Positions 5,449-15,879 of a DNA stretch of 64,000 bases are shown piece after piece (the stretch's first letter is position 1; each line of letters opens with the position of its first letter). Under the pieces are notes generated by a model. That model made no database searches and was not told the origin of the DNA. It saw only the letters and a program-made list of their open reading frames with translations. The stretch is from positions 1-64,000 of the forward strand of contig CAIXPS010000522.1 in assembly GCA_903921365.1 (NCBI GenBank), in the 5' to 3' direction. Both the position numbers and the translations under genes were made by a program. This stretch comes from an uncultured bacterium (GTDB lineage Bacteria; Chloroflexota; Anaerolineae; J036; Brachytrichaceae).

Positions 5449-6468
5449 ATGGCAAAACAGCAGCAACCAGCCAAGAAAGGCGGATGTTTGCGTACAGGTC
5501 TCTTGATAGTAGGCGGAGTGATTCTATTTTTCTGTGTCATTAGCCTCATTGGCAGCCAGCTGGGTGGAAACACTGGCAAGGCTACAGGCACACCTGCAAC
5601 AGTTGCCGGACTCACTACGACACAATCTACGACGAGTACGCCTGACACAGTCAGCCAAGTCAGTACTGCGAAACCGACAAACACTTCGGTACCTACCGCA
5701 CAGGTATTGGCAGATACTCCAGCGCCTACAGCAATGCCGGTTCCTACTGGAACGCAGTCCCCTACCGCTGCGTCACAACCTTCAAATACACCTGCTCCCA
5801 CGGATAGTTCAACGACAGCAGCGCAGGTGGCCAGCCCACAGCCAACCAAGGTTATCCCAACGGTGGCGCCTACAGTGACTCCACCACCTACAAAGGTAAT
5901 ACCAACAGTAGCGCCTACAGCGACCCCGCCACCAACCAAGGCAGCTCCTACTGCGATCCCAACTGCTGTACCAACTGCGGCGCCAAAAGCATCAGTGTTT
6001 GGCGATGGCACGTTTGTCGTGGGCGCAGATATTGCACCAGGTACCTACCGCAATACTGAAGGACAGGGTTGTTACTGGGAGCGCCTTAGCGGTTTCGGTG
6101 GAACTACCGGGGATATTCTCGCGAATGATAACGCCAGCGGGCCAGCCGTAGTAACCATCTTTCCTACGGACAAAGGTTTTTCATCAGAAAGGTGTGGATC
6201 ATGGACTTCAGATTTATCTCCCATTACGACCAACCCCGGAGCACCGTTTAGGACTGGAACGTATATTGTTGGTCGGGATATAGCAGCAGGCCAATGGAAG
6301 TCAAGTGGTGGTGCAGGATGTTATTGGGCCCGACTGAGTGGCTTTGATGGAACAACGAATAATATCATCGCTAACGATAACACCGATAATCCAGCTATAG
6401 TTCAGATTGGCACCAGTGACAAAGGATTTATGAGTACTCGATGCGGCACATGGACGAAAGTGGGCTAA
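5449..6468 (+). CDS. Membrane-anchored or secreted protein with Pro/Thr linker and two GxYxxG repeat domains
   Basis: A 339-residue protein. After a basic start (KQQQPAKKGG) there is one hydrophobic segment at about residues 18-36, acting as signal anchor. A low-complexity Pro/Thr/Ala linker with PTATPPPTK-like units follows to about residue 180. The C-terminal part holds two copies of a domain of about 70 residues. Each starts G-T-(F/Y)-x-V-G-x-DIAxG, has GCYW-x-RLSGF in the middle, and ends F-x-(S/T)-x-RCG-(S/T)-W. Each copy has two cysteines, which could form a disulfide outside the cell. The domain resembles repeats in secreted actinobacterial and Chloroflexota proteins of unknown function. 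It has its own promoter and terminator. Confidence 0.75.
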   Translation: MAKQQQPAKKGGCLRTGLLIVGGVILFFCVISLIGSQLGGNTGKATGTPATVAGLTTTQSTTSTPDTVSQVSTAKPTNTSVPTAQVLADTPAPTAMPVPTGTQSPTAASQPSNTPAPTDSSTTAAQVASPQPTKVIPTVAPTVTPPPTKVIPTVAPTATPPPTKAAPTAIPTAVPTAAPKASVFGDGTFVVGADIAPGTYRNTEGQGCYWERLSGFGGTTGDILANDNASGPAVVTIFPTDKGFSSERCGSWTSDLSPITTNPGAPFRTGTYIVGRDIAAGQWKSSGGAGCYWARLSGFDGTTNNIIANDNTDNPAIVQIGTSDKGFMSTRCGTWTKVG

Positions 6469-7372: not shown

Positions 7373-9058
7373 CTATCGCCCGATCCCCACGCTCCCGCCA
7401 AAGGCCGCTGACATCTCCTGGTAGATGCTCGCGATGTTGGCCGTGTTGCCGGCGTAGAAGTTGCCCTTGCCGCCGCTGGCGAGCTTGAGCAATACATCCT
7501 GGTCGGCGTCCTCACCATAGGCAATCGTGAAGACCGTCGTGTTGTTAGCCGCCGCGGTGTCGATCAACTTCTGGTTCATGGAGTACTGGTTGCTGCTGGT
7601 GTCCTGACCGTCGGTGAGCACCACCATCACGTTGCTGGTCTCGGCGCTGTTCGATTTCTTGAGCAGCCCCGCCGCCGTTCCAATGGCGTCGTACAGCGAT
7701 GTGTTTCCAGAAGCCTGGATGCCGTTGATCTGAGCCACGGCATTCGCGCGCGCGTCCGCCACCTTTTTGTGATCGATCAGCACGCGTATTTTGTCGGAGA
7801 ACGTCATCAATGTCAGGAAGTCGTTGTCGCCCATTTGTTGCGCGAACTGCATGGCCGCTGTGCGCACGCTGTCGATCTTGGCCCCGCGCATGCTGCCTGA
7901 GATGTCGATCAGCATGACGAGGTTGACGTTCTTGCGCGCGGACTGCCACAGGTTGCTGACGGCCAACAGCGTATCGACGCTTGGCGCGCCATACACCACC
8001 TTGGGTTGCGCGGGATCGACGCCGTGCTCGGTGTCAAAAGGCGCACCCAGGCTGACGCCCGCGCTAGCGGTCGCGGGGCGCAGCCCTGCGCTCACCGCCG
8101 TCTGTTGCACGTCGGATTTCAACAGGTAGTCGCGGAACAGCTTCGCCGCCTCCTGCGTCTGCGCATCCGCGCCGTCGTTTACGCACGCGGGATGTGTCGC
8201 CATAAACGTGCCCTCAAAGGGGTAGATGGCGACCAGGTCGGTGTCGCCACCGCCGCCGCCGTTGTTGATCAGCGTGCTCTCGTACTCCACGCCGCCGCCC
8301 ATAAAGTCGCTGCCGCGCTGGTACAAGGTCTCGCCCATCTTGTCGGTGGATGGGCTGAAGGACGCGACGGCGCCTTCAAATGCCTTGACCGAGGCCTGCA
8401 CGATCGGGTCGTTAATGTCGGCGACGGTGACGGGATCGGTTTTCGAGCGTGCAGCCTGCACGATTGCCAGCAACGTGCTCACACCGCTGCCCGATAAGCC
8501 GGGATGCGTGTGGCCGATGCGCAACGCCGCGCCGTATTTGCCGCCGCTGTAATAGGCCCACTCCGACGGGTCCGCGGCCAGTGTGCCGACGTCGAGCCAT
8601 CCGAGCGCGCGTCCCGGCCAACCCAGGGCTTCGGCGATCGGGCGCCACATCGCGATCACGAGCGGGCTTTGCGCCACGCTCACGCAGTTGGCCTGGTAGC
8701 CGGTCTGTCCGCGCTTTGCCAGCACGGCGGCCCAGACGGCGTCATCAGGGATCCACAGGGCGGGCAAGTTTGTGCCGTCCGTCATGTCGCTGACCGCCTG
8801 TCCGGCCTCGACAATGCTGACGTCGACGAAGACTGGTTTTCCCGCCGCCAGCTTCGTCCCGGACTGGTTGAACTTGTCCACGGCCTGCTCGATCCAGGGC
8901 GTCAGCCCGGCGTTGGCCGTGACGCGGATCCTGAAGGCGTTCGCCGGGGCGACGGGCGCCTTGCTTGTTGTTCCGCTCGGCGCGCGTGAACACGCCGCCA
9001 GCGCCAGCGCTCCCGCAACGACAAACACCATCAGCGCAGATGCTTTTTTATTATGCAT
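7373..9058 (-). CDS. Lipoprotein with solute-binding and VWA domains
   Basis: A 561-residue exported protein. A lipoprotein signal ends at LAACS, so Cys23 would be lipidated. Residues of about 40-330 look like a periplasmic solute-binding fold of the type found beside VWA domains. Residues of about 375-555 are a von Willebrand factor A domain with an intact MIDAS (DISGSM, Asp385 onward; TSLYDAIG; VLTDGQD). It is the last gene of the minus-strand unit that starts at 13102. It probably acts outside the membrane together with the next gene, which also carries a solute-binding domain. Ligand and role are unknown. Confidence 0.82.
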   Translation of the reverse strand: MHNKKASALMVFVVAGALALAACSRAPSGTTSKAPVAPANAFRIRVTANAGLTPWIEQAVDKFNQSGTKLAAGKPVFVDVSIVEAGQAVSDMTDGTNLPALWIPDDAVWAAVLAKRGQTGYQANCVSVAQSPLVIAMWRPIAEALGWPGRALGWLDVGTLAADPSEWAYYSGGKYGAALRIGHTHPGLSGSGVSTLLAIVQAARSKTDPVTVADINDPIVQASVKAFEGAVASFSPSTDKMGETLYQRGSDFMGGGVEYESTLINNGGGGGDTDLVAIYPFEGTFMATHPACVNDGADAQTQEAAKLFRDYLLKSDVQQTAVSAGLRPATASAGVSLGAPFDTEHGVDPAQPKVVYGAPSVDTLLAVSNLWQSARKNVNLVMLIDISGSMRGAKIDSVRTAAMQFAQQMGDNDFLTLMTFSDKIRVLIDHKKVADARANAVAQINGIQASGNTSLYDAIGTAAGLLKKSNSAETSNVMVVLTDGQDTSSNQYSMNQKLIDTAAANNTTVFTIAYGEDADQDVLLKLASGGKGNFYAGNTANIASIYQEMSAAFGGSVGIGR

Positions 9059-9086
9059 AACTCACCACCTGTATCCTTCGACCGGG

Positions 9087-10715
9087 TTATCGGCCGACGG
9101 TGAGCAAGGTCATTTCAACGTAGCGGTCTTCGGCCTGGAAGTTGACGTCTTCGGTCTCCCAGTGTTCCTGCGGCGGCAGGGTGGCCTCAACAATGAACCG
9201 GCTGCGATCCACGCCCTGCGACACCATGTAGTCGACGACCGACTGCGCGCGACCCTGCGCAAACTTCAGGATATCGTCCTGCTTGTATGTCCCTTTCGGG
9301 CCTGGCCAGGCGGCGGAACCCTTGACGCGCAGGAATAGTCCCACGCTTTGCTGCAATGTGGGCACGACGCAGTCGTCCAGAATGCGGCGCGACTCGATCG
9401 TCAATGCAGTCGATTCTGGCACGAACGTGAACCGGCGGCACGGCAACTCGGCCAGCGTGGCCGCGTCATTGGTGTTGACGCCGCTCAAGTCCAGCTTGGC
9501 CGATATTGAGAACGTATCGTTAATCGGCTTGGCGTTGGCTTGTAACACGGCCTGCGAAGCTGAGCGGCTGACGAAGCCGGGGTTCACCAGGTCGGTGACG
9601 TTGTCGTTTGGCACCGTCGCGCCCGAGGCCGCCCACACGCGCCGCGCGATATTCAGCCGGTTGATGATCGGCGTGGGGTCGCGCATGACGAAGGCGTTGG
9701 CGCCCAGGTCGGCCTGCGCCAGGCTCTTCAAGGCGCCCTTCAGATCCGCGCCGCCAGTGGCAGTCTGGATCGTCGTCCAGTCGTTATGCCCCCACTTGGC
9801 GACCTGCGCGCCGGCGGCGTCGTAGTTTTCAACCTGCGCCTTCAGCGTGTCGAACCAGGCGTCGTGGAACTTCTGAACGGCGTCGGCGCGCTTTGTGATC
9901 GACTGGCGCGAGGTGACGATCACGTCGATCACGATGCGCATCTGGCTGGAACTGAGCAGCGCCACGCCGCCGCTGGTCTTTGCCCCGTAGATGTCAGGCT
10001 CCCAGCCGGCCACGGCGTCGGCCTTGCCGTCGTTGAATGCCTTGACCGCAGCCTCAACGCTGTCCTGCGGGACCAGCGTGACATCGAAGCGCGGGTTCAG
10101 GCGCGCGATGCTGAGCGTGTAATACACGAAGTACTCGCCGACGCTGCCGCGCGAGAACGCGATGCGCTTGCCCTTGAGGTCGTTGACCGTCTTGATGTTG
10201 CGCACCCACAACTGGTCTGCGCCGGCGCTCTCGTCGATGATCGCGGTGATCGCCCCTGGGCTGGTCAGCGCCACCGAGTCGAGCGTTGTGAGCAGGCAGT
10301 CCCACTGTCCGGCGTTGAGGAGCGCTGTGCGCTGCTCCTCTGAGACGTCGTATTCAGGCTTGTTATCGAGCGAGAAGGGGACGATGCCGAGGTGGAACCC
10401 GTGCGCCACATCCTTGCCCGCCGTCTGCATCTGCTGCAGGACAAAGTAGCTGCCGAATGTGTCGGCGCCGCAGATGTAGTTTGGCAAGCCGTCCTTCGCG
10501 TCTATGCCGGCGGCAAACACTGGCGCCGGCGACTTCAGATCCACCTGTGGCGTGGTCGCTTGGTCGGGACTCGCCACGACGGGCGCGACTGTTGGCGCCG
10601 GTGTGGCCTGCAGCGGCTTGACGACAAAGTTAGCCGCCAACGCGCCGCACACGATCACCAGCGCGACGCCGATAATGAGAAAGAACACGATCCGGGTTGA
10701 ACTGAGCTTTTGCAT
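9087..10715 (-). CDS. Solute-binding (NMT1/SsuA-like) protein fused to an OmpA-like domain
   Basis: A 542-residue protein with one N-terminal membrane helix (about residues 9-29), a Pro/Thr/Val-rich spacer, a substrate-binding domain of the NMT1/SsuA type (about 65-345), and an OmpA-like C-terminal domain (about 425-540). The C-terminal domain shows ESRRILDD, the helix FAQGRAQSVVDYMVSQGVD and the final strand RYVEMTLL. OmpA-like domains usually hold peptidoglycan, so the binding domain may be tethered to the wall. It sits between the membrane coiled-coil gene and the VWA gene, with only short gaps. No permease or ATPase gene is nearby, so transport is unlikely and a sensory or structural role is more plausible. 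Confidence 0.82.
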   Translation of the reverse strand: MQKLSSTRIVFFLIIGVALVIVCGALAANFVVKPLQATPAPTVAPVVASPDQATTPQVDLKSPAPVFAAGIDAKDGLPNYICGADTFGSYFVLQQMQTAGKDVAHGFHLGIVPFSLDNKPEYDVSEEQRTALLNAGQWDCLLTTLDSVALTSPGAITAIIDESAGADQLWVRNIKTVNDLKGKRIAFSRGSVGEYFVYYTLSIARLNPRFDVTLVPQDSVEAAVKAFNDGKADAVAGWEPDIYGAKTSGGVALLSSSQMRIVIDVIVTSRQSITKRADAVQKFHDAWFDTLKAQVENYDAAGAQVAKWGHNDWTTIQTATGGADLKGALKSLAQADLGANAFVMRDPTPIINRLNIARRVWAASGATVPNDNVTDLVNPGFVSRSASQAVLQANAKPINDTFSISAKLDLSGVNTNDAATLAELPCRRFTFVPESTALTIESRRILDDCVVPTLQQSVGLFLRVKGSAAWPGPKGTYKQDDILKFAQGRAQSVVDYMVSQGVDRSRFIVEATLPPQEHWETEDVNFQAEDRYVEMTLLTVGR

Positions 10716-10772
10716 GATAGATCCCCTGTTCCTGTTAGAAAGTTGACGCGTTGTGCGCCCGTGGGACTGATA

Positions 10773-11630
10773 TTAACGTGCTGATGCGGTCGCCTTGACC
10801 GCCGAAAGTGACGAGTTCTGATAGACCTCGTCCATGGCAGAGCCGGTGTCTTGCAGGGCGCGCACCTGCTCCGTCATATCCTGTTGCAGTCGCTGCGCGC
10901 GGCTGCTGCTGACATCCTTTGAACCGATTAACACGATTTGCATATAGACCGTCCCGATGGCTGAGAGCGTATCCTCCAGTTGCAGTTGGGCCCTGGCCAT
11001 CGTATCGCGCAGGTTGCGCAACGCGTCCCACTGCGATTGTTTGATGCTAATGGTCTTTTCCAGTTCTGCCTGAACGGGGCTGCCCTTTTCCCTGACAAGT
11101 TGCGCCTTGAACTTATCCAGTTCCTGCGGGACGGTGGCGGTGTCCCGCCCGATAATCGGGTCGCGCTGATAGGCGTCCAGCCCCTGCGCCAGCCTGTAGA
11201 TCTGCGCAATCCAGTCTTCCATCCCACGCGCGGCGTCGCGCAGATACTCATCCAGAACCGCATCCTGCTTTCTGTCGATTTCCTTTGCGATCAGTTCGCG
11301 GTACTCCAGCGCCTTGGCCACCTTCTGGCGCAGTTCAGGGCTGCGCAGCCGGTTGATGTCGAACTTCTCGTGGAACATTTCGTTGAGCACCTGATTATAG
11401 AAGTGCGGGTCGCGCAACGTGCTCAGCAGGATCAACCCCTCGCCCAGAAGCCCGCCGAGCAGCCACATCCACCACAGGCCGGGGAACCAGGGCAACCCCA
11501 GCAGCGACAACGTCATCAGCACCAGCGTCAGCGCGATGATGATGGCGCTCTCTGGTCTGAATATCGAATAGGACAGGACAGACTTGCGAATCTGCTCCTG
11601 CATTTCCTTGCTGAGTTGGTTGCGGTTCAT
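10773..11630 (-). CDS. Membrane protein with long coiled coil, function unknown
   Basis: A 285-residue protein. Two close hydrophobic segments at about residues 29-50 and 52-70 form a hairpin, followed by a charged, Gln/Glu/Arg-rich helical region to the C-terminus that should form coiled coil (for instance SRAQRLQQDMTEQVRALQ). Its start overlaps the stop of the PLP decarboxylase by four bases (ATGA), so it is translationally coupled. The helical tail most likely lies in the cytoplasm. No named family is recognised with certainty. The position between a decarboxylase and two exported binding proteins suggests one membrane complex. Confidence 0.75.
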   Translation of the reverse strand: MNRNQLSKEMQEQIRKSVLSYSIFRPESAIIIALTLVLMTLSLLGLPWFPGLWWMWLLGGLLGEGLILLSTLRDPHFYNQVLNEMFHEKFDINRLRSPELRQKVAKALEYRELIAKEIDRKQDAVLDEYLRDAARGMEDWIAQIYRLAQGLDAYQRDPIIGRDTATVPQELDKFKAQLVREKGSPVQAELEKTISIKQSQWDALRNLRDTMARAQLQLEDTLSAIGTVYMQIVLIGSKDVSSSRAQRLQQDMTEQVRALQDTGSAMDEVYQNSSLSAVKATASAR

Positions 11631-13102
11631 GATTCGTCCACCGGGTAGCCCAGAATGCGCAACACATCGTTGCTCGTCTGGCCGGGCAACAGCCGAAACT
11701 GGTATGGTTCTTTGTCATCGGCGCGGTCAATGATCAGTTCAAACGCTTCGGGCAGCATGCAGTGTTTTGCCCCTTTCACGCCGCCGAGCATCTCCTGATA
11801 CGCGCCCACGCTGAAGAAACCGATGTACAGGTCTTTCGTCTCCACAGGCAGATACAGCGGCGAGACGCTCGTCTTGGGCGGGTAGACATCGTCGCTGTCG
11901 CACGTCAGCCCGCCGAGTTGCACGCGCTGGAAGGGCTTGTCCAGGTGGTTCAACGGCAGGACGATGAAGTGCTCGCCGAGCGCCCAGGTGTCGGGAAACG
12001 AGGTCATGATTGAGCCGTTGAGGATGTACCAGGGCAACTCTGAACCGTTGTTCTTCACCGTCAGCACCCTAAAGAAATGCGCGCCATGCTCTGTCGCGGT
12101 GTAGCGCCCCATCTCGCCCATAATGTCGGGCACGGGCACACCGTAACGCGCGCAGGCCTCGCTCAGCGCGGTCATCAGCAGCCGCGCGAACAGCCGGTAG
12201 TCAAAGTGGAAGTTGAGCGTCATCGGGGCGGGCACGCCGCCGCCAAAATCGAAGATGCTCATCTCTGAGTGGCGTTGGCGCATCCGCCCGTATAGGTCGA
12301 TGGCGGGTTTTAGCGCGCTGACGAATTCGTGTTCACTGGTGATCTGGCTGCCGATCATCGCGTGCAATAGTTTGAGATTCAAGCTCGGCGCAGCGGCGAT
12401 GATGTCAGCCGCTTTCCACAGGTCTGCAATTTGCAGCCCGAAGCGCGAGTTGCCGGCATCCACCGGCGTTTTAGTCCCATGATTGCCGCTGACGCCTGAG
12501 GTCAGCCGGTGTCCGTAGCACTTCAGGCGCAAACCGACGTCGAAGGCCAACCCGCTCTCGATGAAGGGGGCGAGTTCGATGAGGTCTTCGAGCACCGGGA
12601 TCAGGTTGTCGTGCACACGTTTCAACTGAACCAGGCTATGCGCATAGCCGCTGCCCGCGGGTTTGAACCCATTGGCGATGACCATGCGTTCGGGCGACAG
12701 TACCCCGGATGTCTGCATCGTCTGCACGATCACTGTGTCGAACTGCGACGACATCTCATAGTTCGCGCCGGCGTCCAGCACCGCATGAACCACTTCTTCC
12801 GCGGTGTTCGCTTTCGAGGCGTAGGTATAGTGAAATCGCCCGGCGTATCCGATCTCGGCTGCTACCTCGGCAAATACGGAGTTGAGTTCCGCAACTTTCT
12901 GTCGCAGCATCGGCAGATAGATGATCTCCAGCGGCGACGGCAACGTCCTGCCCAACCCCTGATCCTGACCGCCGCCATGGACCAGTTGCGCAAGGTCGAG
13001 GTCCTCGTAGAACAACCTGCCATTCCGCGATGCCAGGAAGCTGTTGAACTCATGATTCGGGACGGGAGATTCATGCTCCCAGCCAATAATTGGATGTGTC
13101 AT
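11627..13102 (-). CDS. PLP-dependent decarboxylase, arginine/diaminopimelate decarboxylase type (fold III)
   Basis: A 491-residue protein with the alanine-racemase-like barrel of group IV decarboxylases. The PLP lysine is Lys97 in the YTYASKAN motif. Later comes the glycine-rich FDFGGGVPAP loop that holds the phosphate, then a C-terminal beta domain with CDSDD, the motif that usually includes the catalytic Cys and Asp. It resembles biosynthetic arginine decarboxylases but is shorter than SpeA (about 630-660). The start is placed at ATG 13102; a TTG 15 bases upstream is less likely. It heads the four-gene minus-strand unit. Its product might be a polyamine precursor, but it could be a divergent enzyme with another substrate. 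Confidence 0.8.
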   Translation of the reverse strand: MTHPIIGWEHESPVPNHEFNSFLASRNGRLFYEDLDLAQLVHGGGQDQGLGRTLPSPLEIIYLPMLRQKVAELNSVFAEVAAEIGYAGRFHYTYASKANTAEEVVHAVLDAGANYEMSSQFDTVIVQTMQTSGVLSPERMVIANGFKPAGSGYAHSLVQLKRVHDNLIPVLEDLIELAPFIESGLAFDVGLRLKCYGHRLTSGVSGNHGTKTPVDAGNSRFGLQIADLWKAADIIAAAPSLNLKLLHAMIGSQITSEHEFVSALKPAIDLYGRMRQRHSEMSIFDFGGGVPAPMTLNFHFDYRLFARLLMTALSEACARYGVPVPDIMGEMGRYTATEHGAHFFRVLTVKNNGSELPWYILNGSIMTSFPDTWALGEHFIVLPLNHLDKPFQRVQLGGLTCDSDDVYPPKTSVSPLYLPVETKDLYIGFFSVGAYQEMLGGVKGAKHCMLPEAFELIIDRADDKEPYQFRLLPGQTSNDVLRILGYPVDES

Positions 13103-13157
13103 TTGCTGCTTTCTCAACCCGCTGGTTATACTGTTTTATGCGCGGATCACATGACCG

Positions 13158-14675
13158 CTATCTGACAATTATCGTCCACAGCAACGCCAGAATGCCCACA
13201 CCCAGCCCGATCAACAGGCCATAAGGGAGCGTTAATCGCAATACGTCGCCGTCGCGCCCTTTCAACCCGACGGTGCTGCAACCGACAATGATCTTGGCGG
13301 GGGCAATCATGCTGCCCAGCGAGCCGCCGGCCGTCTGCGTTGCCACAAGCAGGCTCGGGGCGATTCCCAGCAATACCGCCGCGCTCTTTTGCAGCGATCC
13401 AAACAGCACATTCGAGTTATTGTTGCTGCCGGTGGCGAAGGCGCCCAGTATACCGACCAGCGGTGATACAACCGGGAAGGCGCCGCCCATCAAGGCGCTC
13501 AACCCCTGCGCCAGCAACAAGGTCATCCCGCAATGATCCATCAGGGCGGCTAGCCCGACCATCGCCAGAACCCCTGCGCTCGATGGCGCAGCGGATCGCC
13601 ATGTGGCGGTCAGCGCGGTGCGCCACGCGCCATCCGGCAGCAAACGCCGCCGCCGCTGCAAACCATAACTTGCGACAGCGACGAGCAGGATCGCTGTGCC
13701 TGGATGGATTAAGGGCCGGAAAATCTGGCCAGGGCCGGCTGGGGTGACAAATCCAGTCTGCGTGATCACCTGGGGAAAATCCAACTGCCATACTATCTGC
13801 ATGAGCACAGATCGCAATGGCTGAATGAGCGCGATCAAGCCCATGAGAATCGTCAAGCTCCCGTACGTCGCAAGCGCGCCGAGAAGCTCAGGTGACAACT
13901 TTGTTTTAACAGATGGGCTTTTAACGCGCGAGGTGTTGCCCAGCGCCATCCCACCGCCGACGCCGACGATTCCGGCGCCGAGAGCGCCGAGTGCGGTCAG
14001 CCCGGCCACCGCCAGAACGCCCTGCGTCACCGCCATGATAACGCCGAGGACGAGCACCACCAGCCAGCGGCGCCCCTGTTGCAGGATGCGCGCCGCCGCC
14101 AGGCCGCAGGCCACGCACGCGATTCCGAGGATAACGGCAGCCGTTGGCGCAAGCGTTGCGCCATCCATCTTGACGACCGAGATGAGCGTCTGGAAGATCA
14201 CGCCCATGTCGCCAAACGTGACCGACCACGAGTGACCGACGGCGACGGCGGCCACCGCAATCACTGGGGACACGCCCAGGCTGGTGAGCATTGGCGCAAC
14301 CACCGCGATCGGCAGACCGAAGCCGGCCAGCCCTTCGAGCAGGCCGCTGAACGCCCAGGCGAGCACGATCAACAGCACGCCGCGGTCGGCAATCGCGCGC
14401 TCCAGCCCCAGCGCAATCGCGCGAATGCCGCCTGCCTGGTTGACGACGTTATACAGCAGCAATGCCGGCCACAGGACGGCGAGCACGTAGAGCGAGAGCA
14501 ACAGCCCCTTCGCCTGGGATACCCACAAAATCTGTGGCGTCAGCCCGAACGCGACTGCCGCAATCGCAACGCCAGCCAGCAACCCGACCGGCCCGGCGCG
14601 CTGGCCGCCCCATCGCAATAAGATCATCAACGCGAGGACGAGCACGATCGGTAGAAGAGCAAGGAAATATTGCAC
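13158..14675 (-). CDS. L-lactate permease family transporter
   Basis: A 505-residue, very hydrophobic protein with about 12-14 membrane segments, matching the LctP/GlcA (lactate/glycolate permease) family. The family signature FSGLLEGLAGFGLPIAV is present near residues 109-125, with VAAVAVGHSWSVTFGDMG following. The C-terminus carries the AGGSLGSMIAPAKI motif typical of the family. It would bring lactate or glycolate in with protons. It starts divergently from the UroD-like gene and ends 55 bases before the decarboxylase unit in the same direction. Confidence 0.88.
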   Translation of the reverse strand: MQYFLALLPIVLVLALMILLRWGGQRAGPVGLLAGVAIAAVAFGLTPQILWVSQAKGLLLSLYVLAVLWPALLLYNVVNQAGGIRAIALGLERAIADRGVLLIVLAWAFSGLLEGLAGFGLPIAVVAPMLTSLGVSPVIAVAAVAVGHSWSVTFGDMGVIFQTLISVVKMDGATLAPTAAVILGIACVACGLAAARILQQGRRWLVVLVLGVIMAVTQGVLAVAGLTALGALGAGIVGVGGGMALGNTSRVKSPSVKTKLSPELLGALATYGSLTILMGLIALIQPLRSVLMQIVWQLDFPQVITQTGFVTPAGPGQIFRPLIHPGTAILLVAVASYGLQRRRRLLPDGAWRTALTATWRSAAPSSAGVLAMVGLAALMDHCGMTLLLAQGLSALMGGAFPVVSPLVGILGAFATGSNNNSNVLFGSLQKSAAVLLGIAPSLLVATQTAGGSLGSMIAPAKIIVGCSTVGLKGRDGDVLRLTLPYGLLIGLGVGILALLWTIIVR

Positions 14676-14752
14676 GGGTTGATTATCCCGCCAGTTGCGA
14701 AATCAGTCACGCTCGTGAAACGCCGTTTGCCCCAATCCGGCCTTGCGCGTAT

Positions 14753-14772
14753 GATCTCCTTGCGAGGAGATC
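14753..14772 (+). promoter_or_regulatory. Hairpin covering the Shine-Dalgarno of the UroD-like gene
   Basis: A perfect 8-base-pair inverted repeat (GATCTCCT, loop TGCG, AGGAGATC). The right arm is the only good ribosome binding site (AGGAGA) before the ATG at 14782, so folding of the mRNA would hide it. Confidence 0.5.
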
Positions 14773-14781
14773 GAAACAAAA

Positions 14782-15879
14782 ATGACGGAACTGACCTGTG
14801 GCGAGCGCGTGGTGCGCTGTTACGTCGGCGAGGACATCGATCGTGTGCCCTATGGCGTGGGTCTTGGCTGGGATCCATGGGGCGAGACGCTGGAGCATTT
14901 CCGCGCCCAGTCTGGCATCCCGGCGCTTGATCTGCGCGAACACTTCCATTTCGACAAGAGCTTCGCCCTGCCGGATGTGCACTATGGCATTTTCCCGGAA
15001 TACCCGCCGGTCATCCTGGAGGAGACGCCCGAGTTCGTCATCCATCGTGACGGACGCGGCATTACGATGCGCGACCGGCGCGACGGCGGCTCGATGCCCG
15101 AATGGCTGGATTACCCGGTGAAGACTGAGGACGACTGGGAGCGCCTGAAATCCGAACGGTTGCGCCCGGATGACCTCGGACGAACCGCGCTGGATTGGGA
15201 CGCCTTCCGCGCGCGATTGAAGGAGACCGGTGAAGCCGTGCAGGTGGGCGTGTTCCCCTGGGGCGTATTTGGCACCCCGCGCGACCTGCTGGGCGTGGAG
15301 AACCTGCTCATCAGCTTTTACGAGCGCCCCGAAATGATTAAAGACATGATGCAGCATCTGACCAGCGTGTGGCTGGCGGTCTGGGAGCGCGTGGCACTCG
15401 AAGCGCCCATCGATCACATCCACATCTGGGAGGACATGAGCGGCAAGGGAGGCTCGCTCATCTCGCCGAAGATGGTGCGCGAGTTCATGATGCCTTGTTA
15501 CGACCGCATCGCCGATTTCGCCCGCGCGCACGGCGTGCGCGTCGTTTCGGTGGACACCGACGGCGATTGCCGCCAGCTTATCCCCATCTTCGTGCAGCAC
15601 GGCGTCAACATGATGTTCCCCTTCGAAGTGCAGGCCGGCAACGACGTGCGCGACTTTCGCCGGCTGTACCCGACGCTGGGGATCATGGGCGGTCTTGATA
15701 AGCGCGCCCTGGCGGGAACCCGCGCTGATGTAGATCGCGAGGTGCAGAAGGCTGCCGAGATGGCGCGTCATGGGCGCTACGTGCCGGGCTTCGATCACCT
15801 CATCCCGCCCGACGCGACATGGGACAACTATCGCTACGCTGCCGAGCAGATGCGGCGCGTGTGTTTCGAGAAAAGCTAA
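14782..15879 (+). CDS. Uroporphyrinogen-decarboxylase-like protein (UroD/MtaA superfamily)
   Basis: A 365-residue TIM-barrel protein of the UROD/MtaA/CmuA superfamily, whose members are haem-pathway decarboxylases or corrinoid methyltransferases. The ending VPGFDHLIPPDATWDNYRYA and the segment HIHIWEDMSGKGGSLISPKMVREFMMPCY are typical of the non-haem branch. The RPG and GFRP motifs of true HemE at the N-terminus are not seen, so it is unlikely to be the haem enzyme. It starts divergently from the lactate permease. A related paralogue lies at 34287-35444. Confidence 0.8.
   Translation: MTELTCGERVVRCYVGEDIDRVPYGVGLGWDPWGETLEHFRAQSGIPALDLREHFHFDKSFALPDVHYGIFPEYPPVILEETPEFVIHRDGRGITMRDRRDGGSMPEWLDYPVKTEDDWERLKSERLRPDDLGRTALDWDAFRARLKETGEAVQVGVFPWGVFGTPRDLLGVENLLISFYERPEMIKDMMQHLTSVWLAVWERVALEAPIDHIHIWEDMSGKGGSLISPKMVREFMMPCYDRIADFARAHGVRVVSVDTDGDCRQLIPIFVQHGVNMMFPFEVQAGNDVRDFRRLYPTLGIMGGLDKRALAGTRADVDREVQKAAEMARHGRYVPGFDHLIPPDATWDNYRYAAEQMRRVCFEKS

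Follow-up and report, generated by a model that had tools for sequence, protein, structure and literature searches.

The window analyzed here, a 64,000-nucleotide stretch of DNA from an uncultured member of the Brachytrichaceae (Chloroflexota; Anaerolineae), carries an operon of four open reading frames, all of which we confirmed on the minus strand. They encode a SpeA-like fold-III PLP decarboxylase (DC; positions 11627 to 13102, 491 amino acids [aa] counted from the ATG), a two-transmembrane (two-TM) coiled-coil protein (CC; 10773 to 11630, 285 aa), and two proteins with solute-binding domains, OmpA-SBP (9087 to 10715, 542 aa) and VWA-SBP (7373 to 9058, 561 aa). DC has an alternative in-frame start, a TTG at 13117. 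The initial annotation had described a fold-III decarboxylase with overlapping start and stop, and indeed the TGA of DC overlaps the start of CC as ATGA (junction ...GAATCATGAACC). Gaps of 57 bp and 28 bp separate CC from OmpA-SBP and OmpA-SBP from VWA-SBP, respectively, and this spacing makes cotranscription of the four genes likely. There is no terminator-like site on the coding strand of the operon, and our promoter and terminator scans performed at chance level.

A lactate-permease-family gene (13158 to 14675, minus strand) lies 55 bp upstream of DC and, being on the same strand, could be cotranscribed with the operon. It is no conserved part of it: upstream of DC it occurs in the window, another genome of the same genus (G004) has only a fragment of it there, and in the congeners G002 and G003 a URO-D gene is found instead. 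The URO-D gene has the same direction as DC in these two genomes (L033 and L035) and is inverted in the window (13158 to 15879), where the lactate-permease gene intervenes, a difference caused by local rearrangement. Two other regions of the window, both on the plus strand, are worth recording. The gene at 5449 to 6468 encodes a protein that is anchored in the membrane, has a Thr/Pro-rich linker, and contains two 'GTYxVGxDIAxGxxxxxxGxGCYWxRLSGFxGTTxxIxANDN'-like domains, which match no Pfam family significantly. Between 48373 and 63836 the GC content drops from about 0.59 to 0.47, and according to Pfam this region encodes in a row a VWA protein, a PP2C phosphatase, a protein kinase, TPR proteins, an Hsp70 with zinc ribbons, and a zinc-ribbon/LysM protein. 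Such a series is similar to VWA/phosphatase/kinase stress modules of the TerY type and was possibly acquired.

Domains and topology of the encoded proteins

DC matches the Pfam family Orn_Arg_deC_N (PF02784, 1e-16) and combines the features of a fold-III PLP basic amino acid decarboxylase, namely, a PLP-barrel domain, the catalytic Lys, and a Cys in the C-terminal domain. The active site is kept, with the Schiff-base Lys97 (YASKAN) and Cys401 (CDSDD, the CDSD Cys motif). Its best sequence matches are biosynthetic arginine decarboxylases of the SpeA type (3nzq, 3nzp, and 3n2o; E-value of 3e-27 for 3nzq), which have the active-site Lys and the CDSD Cys in common with DC. However, DC is shorter (491 to 496 aa versus about 620 to 666 aa), lacks the helical insert of ~100 residues that SpeA has between the barrel and the beta/second domain, and misses the cutoffs of the SpeA NCBIfam models by far (177 of 369 bits for NF003763 and 168 of 624 bits for TIGR01273). 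The SpeA-like active site makes a polyamine-type enzyme plausible, the putative substrate being a basic amino acid, most likely arginine.

CC has hydrophobic stretches at about residues 28 to 46 and 52 to 73, which by hydropathy form a two-TM hairpin, followed by a long helical part, in agreement with its first description as a membrane coiled-coil protein. The helical domain is predicted to be cytoplasmic, and the short uncharged loop and charged flanks of the hairpin suggest that both ends of the protein are as well. Close to the C terminus is a conserved motif, AxGTVYxQ...D(V)xSxRAQRLxxD(I)xxQVxALQD. The family is absent from Pfam, NCBIfam, PHROGs, and the PDB, and a profile search of the PDB returned no significant match. 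AlphaFold, with which the window, L138, and L139 sequences alone were folded from shallow alignments, gave a CC model with pLDDT values mostly of 65 to 90 across the soluble part and low values across the TM part. Foldseek searches with the predicted fold gave no significant match and mostly designed helical bundles; the ESCRT-III protein CdvB2 appeared with an E-value of 0.19 and was not used as a structural relative. We found no sequence relation between CC and known PspA partners, and hhalign did not demonstrate homology between CC and PspA itself.

OmpA-SBP starts with a TM anchor, continues with an NMT1/SsuA-type solute-binding domain (Pfam NMT1, 2e-8), and ends with a degenerate OmpA-like domain (subthreshold, 7e-4). 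The latter is a weak match rather than an absent one, scoring 20.4 bits in the window and 26.2 bits in L042 against a cutoff of 27.2 bits, which gp249 of Bacillus phage G passes. In every aligned copy the canonical Asp is missing (the position reads GSAAW or GSSAW) and the canonical Arg is kept (GRAQSVVDY, ARAQ..); these two positions are those of the diaminopimelate pocket of the OmpA-like peptidoglycan-binding domain. The loss of the Asp, together with the predicted cytoplasmic location of the coiled coil, weakens the earlier idea of a wall-spanning complex. An AlphaFold model of OmpA-SBP had a pLDDT of 33 and was discarded. VWA-SBP is a predicted lipoprotein (lipobox LAAC, Cys23) with an SBP_bac_11 domain (6e-14) and a VWA domain (3e-21). 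Its MIDAS (DxSxS...T...D) is intact (DISGS at 385 [D385 to S389], T453, and D483), and the DxSGSM motif is present in all 43 of the 43 SBP-VWA homologues. The two solute-binding domains in OmpA-like and VWA fusions are borne out, and the four window genes include neither an ABC permease, as had been noted, nor an ABC ATPase.

A conserved gene set around CC in Chloroflexota

Homologues of CC are present in 91 of 149 related genomes. Searching the neighborhoods of these genes revealed a conserved, PspA-containing set that is not visible from the window alone. Its class-wide order, taken from 80 regions whose genes were marked with profiles, is STAND-type NTPase/winged helix (NTPase/wHTH), PspA, anchored SBP, SBP-VWA, CC, and LivK-type SBP, and Lgt joins the set at four loci. 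Within 6 kb and on one strand, the 66 strong CC loci include PspA in 47 cases, SBP-VWA in 44, an anchored (second) SBP in 34, a LivK-type SBP in 33, the NTPase/wHTH protein in 18, OmpA-SBP in 11, and DC in 5, and a single locus has no partner at all; as the loci are one sample of relatives, related by descent, these counts measure conservation and not independent events. No ABC permease or ATPase was among the recurring neighbors that we identified at the Chloroflexota CC loci. That CC genes adjoin those for PspA, SBP, and SBP-VWA throughout the class supports the stress complex that had been proposed from the window sequence.

In the family of the window organism, the set is found in two pieces, a PspA>CC pair and the trio CC>OmpA-SBP>VWA-SBP, both present in the same genomes (L033 to L043 and L070 to L111). 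The window contains the trio plus DC; PspA_IM30, which is part of the class-wide version, is not among its operon genes. The PspA gene of this genome is at C292, where it adjoins a CC relict that has kept the C-terminal motif (ALGTVYS..L.DGKDVEASR.QR) and lost the TM hairpin. If the membrane part now comes from the intact CC of the trio, the trio would work jointly with PspA even though they are encoded apart. No PspA gene adjoins the trio, and it is the paralogues that point to a partnership between CC and PspA. Members of the family also have a third, remote CC paralogue (about 25 to 31% identity; L092 to L103), beside which no PspA or SBP genes were marked. The N-terminal anchors of OmpA-SBP and of the class-wide anchored SBP are alike (TRIVFF...), suggesting the replacement of one by the other.

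Similar arrangements occur beyond the class. Genomes of family f96, which belong to other classes (L187 and L190), encode a PspA-sized coil, OmpA-SBP, and a 265-aa two-TM coil in this order. A plasmid cluster of Variovorax contains an exported SBP-like protein of 374 aa, TelA, SBP-VWA, and a 208-aa two-TM coil, and on Streptomyces and Miltoncostaea plasmids SBP-VWA is followed by a two-TM coil. A plasmid search with a distant OmpA-SBP gave no matches. In Bacillus phage G, a coil gene adjoins two OmpA-SBP genes, and genes for an ABC permease and ATPase are nearby; here (gp247 to gp250; L140, 2282 to 7104) the OmpA-SBP pair is in tandem, and the 246-aa coil matches PspA_IM30 weakly over its full length (E-value of 0.36). 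With hhalign, homology of CC to the two-TM coils of Miltoncostaea, Streptomyces, and Variovorax was not demonstrated, and the comparison with the two-TM coil of other Chloroflexota (E-value of 6.6e-4, probability of 27%) is suggestive of homology only.

Recurrent, facultative linkage of DC

Far fewer of the 149 relatives, 15 in total, have a DC homologue. The order DC>CC>OmpA-SBP>VWA-SBP recurs intact in G002 and G003 (family f1) and in G158, a member of another class, and parts of the set accompany DC in G004, G073 (f12), G118, and G091; hence, the four genes do co-occur elsewhere, and the conserved order excludes a chance association. G118 (f35; L128) has DC>OmpA-SBP>VWA-SBP without CC on a 250-kb contig of a genome that is 97% complete. 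Immediately upstream of these genes (L128, 5466 to 7929) are genes for a sigma-70 factor and McrC. In G091 (f33; L129), CC precedes DC with a 4-bp overlap and SBPs are absent. Three genomes of family f37 have a remote DC divergent from a gene for a PspA-sized coil, followed by OmpA-SBP. The PspA-sized coils of f37 and f96 have a PspA-like start and no significant match to PspA, and we regard them as PspA-like by size and position only.

DC is linked in 10 of the 15 relatives, corresponding to a P value of about 3e-17 (2e-9 by families), which assumes a rough 1% chance per genome and independence and should be read as an order of magnitude. Among DC relatives of at least 60% identity with readable flanks, 8 of 9 are linked to CC and/or SBPs. 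DC is unlinked in G059, G056, G037, and G014, and the locus in G016 stops at a contig edge. G073 and G158 are metagenome-assembled genomes (MAGs) that are 8% contaminated and whose contigs are short, and horizontal transfer and misbinning are indistinguishable as causes of their linkage. A single-protein search of genome contigs returned two congeneric MAGs only. In a phylum-wide sample, in which 42 of 400 genomes had a DC match, relatives at about 40% identity turn up often, and in other classes none of the 15 such loci that we read is linked to the set. Most CC-bearing genomes lack DC. As members of the DC family show no such linkage in the majority of other Chloroflexota, DC is an accessory that was recruited in part of the phylum. 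Of the suggestion that a polyamine-type enzyme shares the message, the enzyme type is therefore plausible, given its active site, and the association with the other genes holds for some lineages only.

Could DC be a passenger, that is, a housekeeping gene that ended up ahead of the SBP/CC set without being functionally connected to it? This would be compatible with the explanation that we prefer for the other three genes. The genes upstream of DC vary (LctP, URO-D, McrC), and DC relatives in f61, f71, f97, and other families lie amid unrelated genes. None of the 10 neighbors of unlinked DC relatives that we tested was a polyamine gene. However, DC has joined the set in several distinct arrangements (those of f1, f35 [L128], f33 [L129], and f37), and we consider it rather unlikely that it is a mere passenger.

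Receptor-coupled envelope maintenance as a proposed function

The most likely explanation, to which we give somewhat better than even odds, is that the operon serves a receptor-coupled, PspA-type maintenance of the envelope, to which DC would contribute an amine as an accessory enzyme. The operon would be a derived, PspA-less offshoot of the PspA-based envelope maintenance system of the Chloroflexota. CC would sit in the membrane with its hairpin, and its cytoplasmic helical domain would be the dedicated partner, an anchor or adaptor, of the ESCRT-III-like PspA. The two anchored binding proteins outside the membrane, one carrying a metal-dependent adhesion (VWA) domain and the other an OmpA-like domain, would be the receptors; we read them in this way, and not as transport components, because no permease accompanies them. 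We hypothesize that the SBP/VWA assembly is altered by a ligand or when the envelope changes physically, that CC relays this across the membrane, and that PspA is then recruited from its separate locus and stabilizes the membrane. DC would decarboxylate a basic amino acid, and the amine could stabilize membrane and wall or feed polyamines. The physical contact with PspA, the direction of signaling, and the ligands are parts of this scheme that we infer, as are the substrate and the role of DC.

Importers are the normal users of NMT1/SsuA-type and SBP_bac_11 domains, and the SBPs could instead be ordinary uptake receptors for an ABC permease encoded elsewhere, with CC as a scaffold and DC using the imported amino acid. 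An SBP adjoining an amino acid decarboxylase fits such uptake and use, the OmpA-SBP genes of phage G are close to permease and ATPase genes, and some PspA/PBP-OmpA operons contain an ABC permease and ATPase (PMC11237479). Nevertheless, we find this improbable: transport SBPs do not typically have TM anchors or fusions to VWA and OmpA-like domains, the recurring genes that we identified at the Chloroflexota loci, where some open reading frames are unlabeled, include no permease or ATPase, and PspA and the VWA domain are left unexplained. Still less probable is a surface assembly or adhesion complex with no link to membrane stress, in which the MIDAS of VWA-SBP binds an extracellular partner, OmpA-SBP grips the wall, and CC anchors the assembly, as this would suit the MIDAS being intact in all copies and the lipoprotein or TM anchors but not the conserved PspA and NTPase/wHTH genes or an OmpA domain without the canonical wall-binding Asp.

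If receptor-coupled maintenance is correct, it bears on the question of how PspA outside proteobacteria and firmicutes senses envelope trouble. The Chloroflexota would offer a candidate sensor set, consisting of the extracellular SBP and SBP-VWA, the CC adaptor, PspA, and the NTPase/wHTH regulator, which recurs class-wide and is directly testable. A common plan recurs, in which a receptor on the outside goes with a two-TM coil and with a membrane-associated coil in the cytoplasm. On this basis, these systems might form a new, receptor-coupled ESCRT-III (PspA) class of membrane repair, in which extracellular SBP and SBP-VWA receptors act through a CC adaptor on PspA, a PspA-like coil, or TelA, depending on the lineage, and a dedicated decarboxylase supplies polyamine for the response in some lineages; this is a tentative possibility that we consider doubtful at present. 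The operon suggests a little-described system that connects sensing at the outside surface with the upkeep of the membrane and, possibly, with the making of polyamines.

Ravi et al. (2024, PMC11237479) reported an ABC transporter and a PBP-OmpA protein in PspA/Snf7 operons and, separately, polyamine genes in PspA-CesT/Tir operons, and they proposed that systems of these kinds couple the sensing of extracellular stress to membrane dynamics. The main texts of PMC11237479 and PMC9239133 mention neither VWA nor, for Chloroflexota, a partner like CC, and neither the SBP/SBP-VWA/CC set nor its combination with DC is described in the main texts that we searched. Like the PspA/Snf7-AAA operons (e.g., OGG56892.1), the systems studied here bring together an SBP/OmpA protein and a PspA-type protein; in contrast to those operons, we saw neither an ABC permease/ATPase nor an AAA+ ATPase of the Vps4 type as a recurring component, while VWA-SBP and CC are added and DC is present. 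With the PspA-CesT/Tir operons they share a polyamine-type enzyme beside a PspA-type system. The enzyme there is an AdoMet decarboxylase, spermidine synthase, or glutathionylspermidine synthetase, whereas here it is a fold-III decarboxylase and we found no CesT/Tir partner; DC is a further, separate decarboxylase case for the published link between PspA and polyamines. In the phage-shock systems of the PspA/PspB-C, LiaI-LiaF, and YdjFGHI types, a membrane protein is encoded beside PspA, as at 47 of the 66 CC loci, a regulator with a DNA-binding domain is present in both, and an envelope function is implied. However, CC is a two-TM coiled coil that matches none of the PspB, PspC, band-7, and LiaF families, the CC set has two or three SBPs, one of them with a VWA domain, and the PspA of the window organism is at another locus. 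Finally, the TelA-linked cluster on the plasmid of Variovorax sp. SRS16 resembles the set in having SBP-VWA, a two-TM coil of ~200 aa, and a cytoplasmic coil protein, but this protein is TelA in place of PspA, and the two-TM coil of the cluster has no detectable sequence relation to CC.
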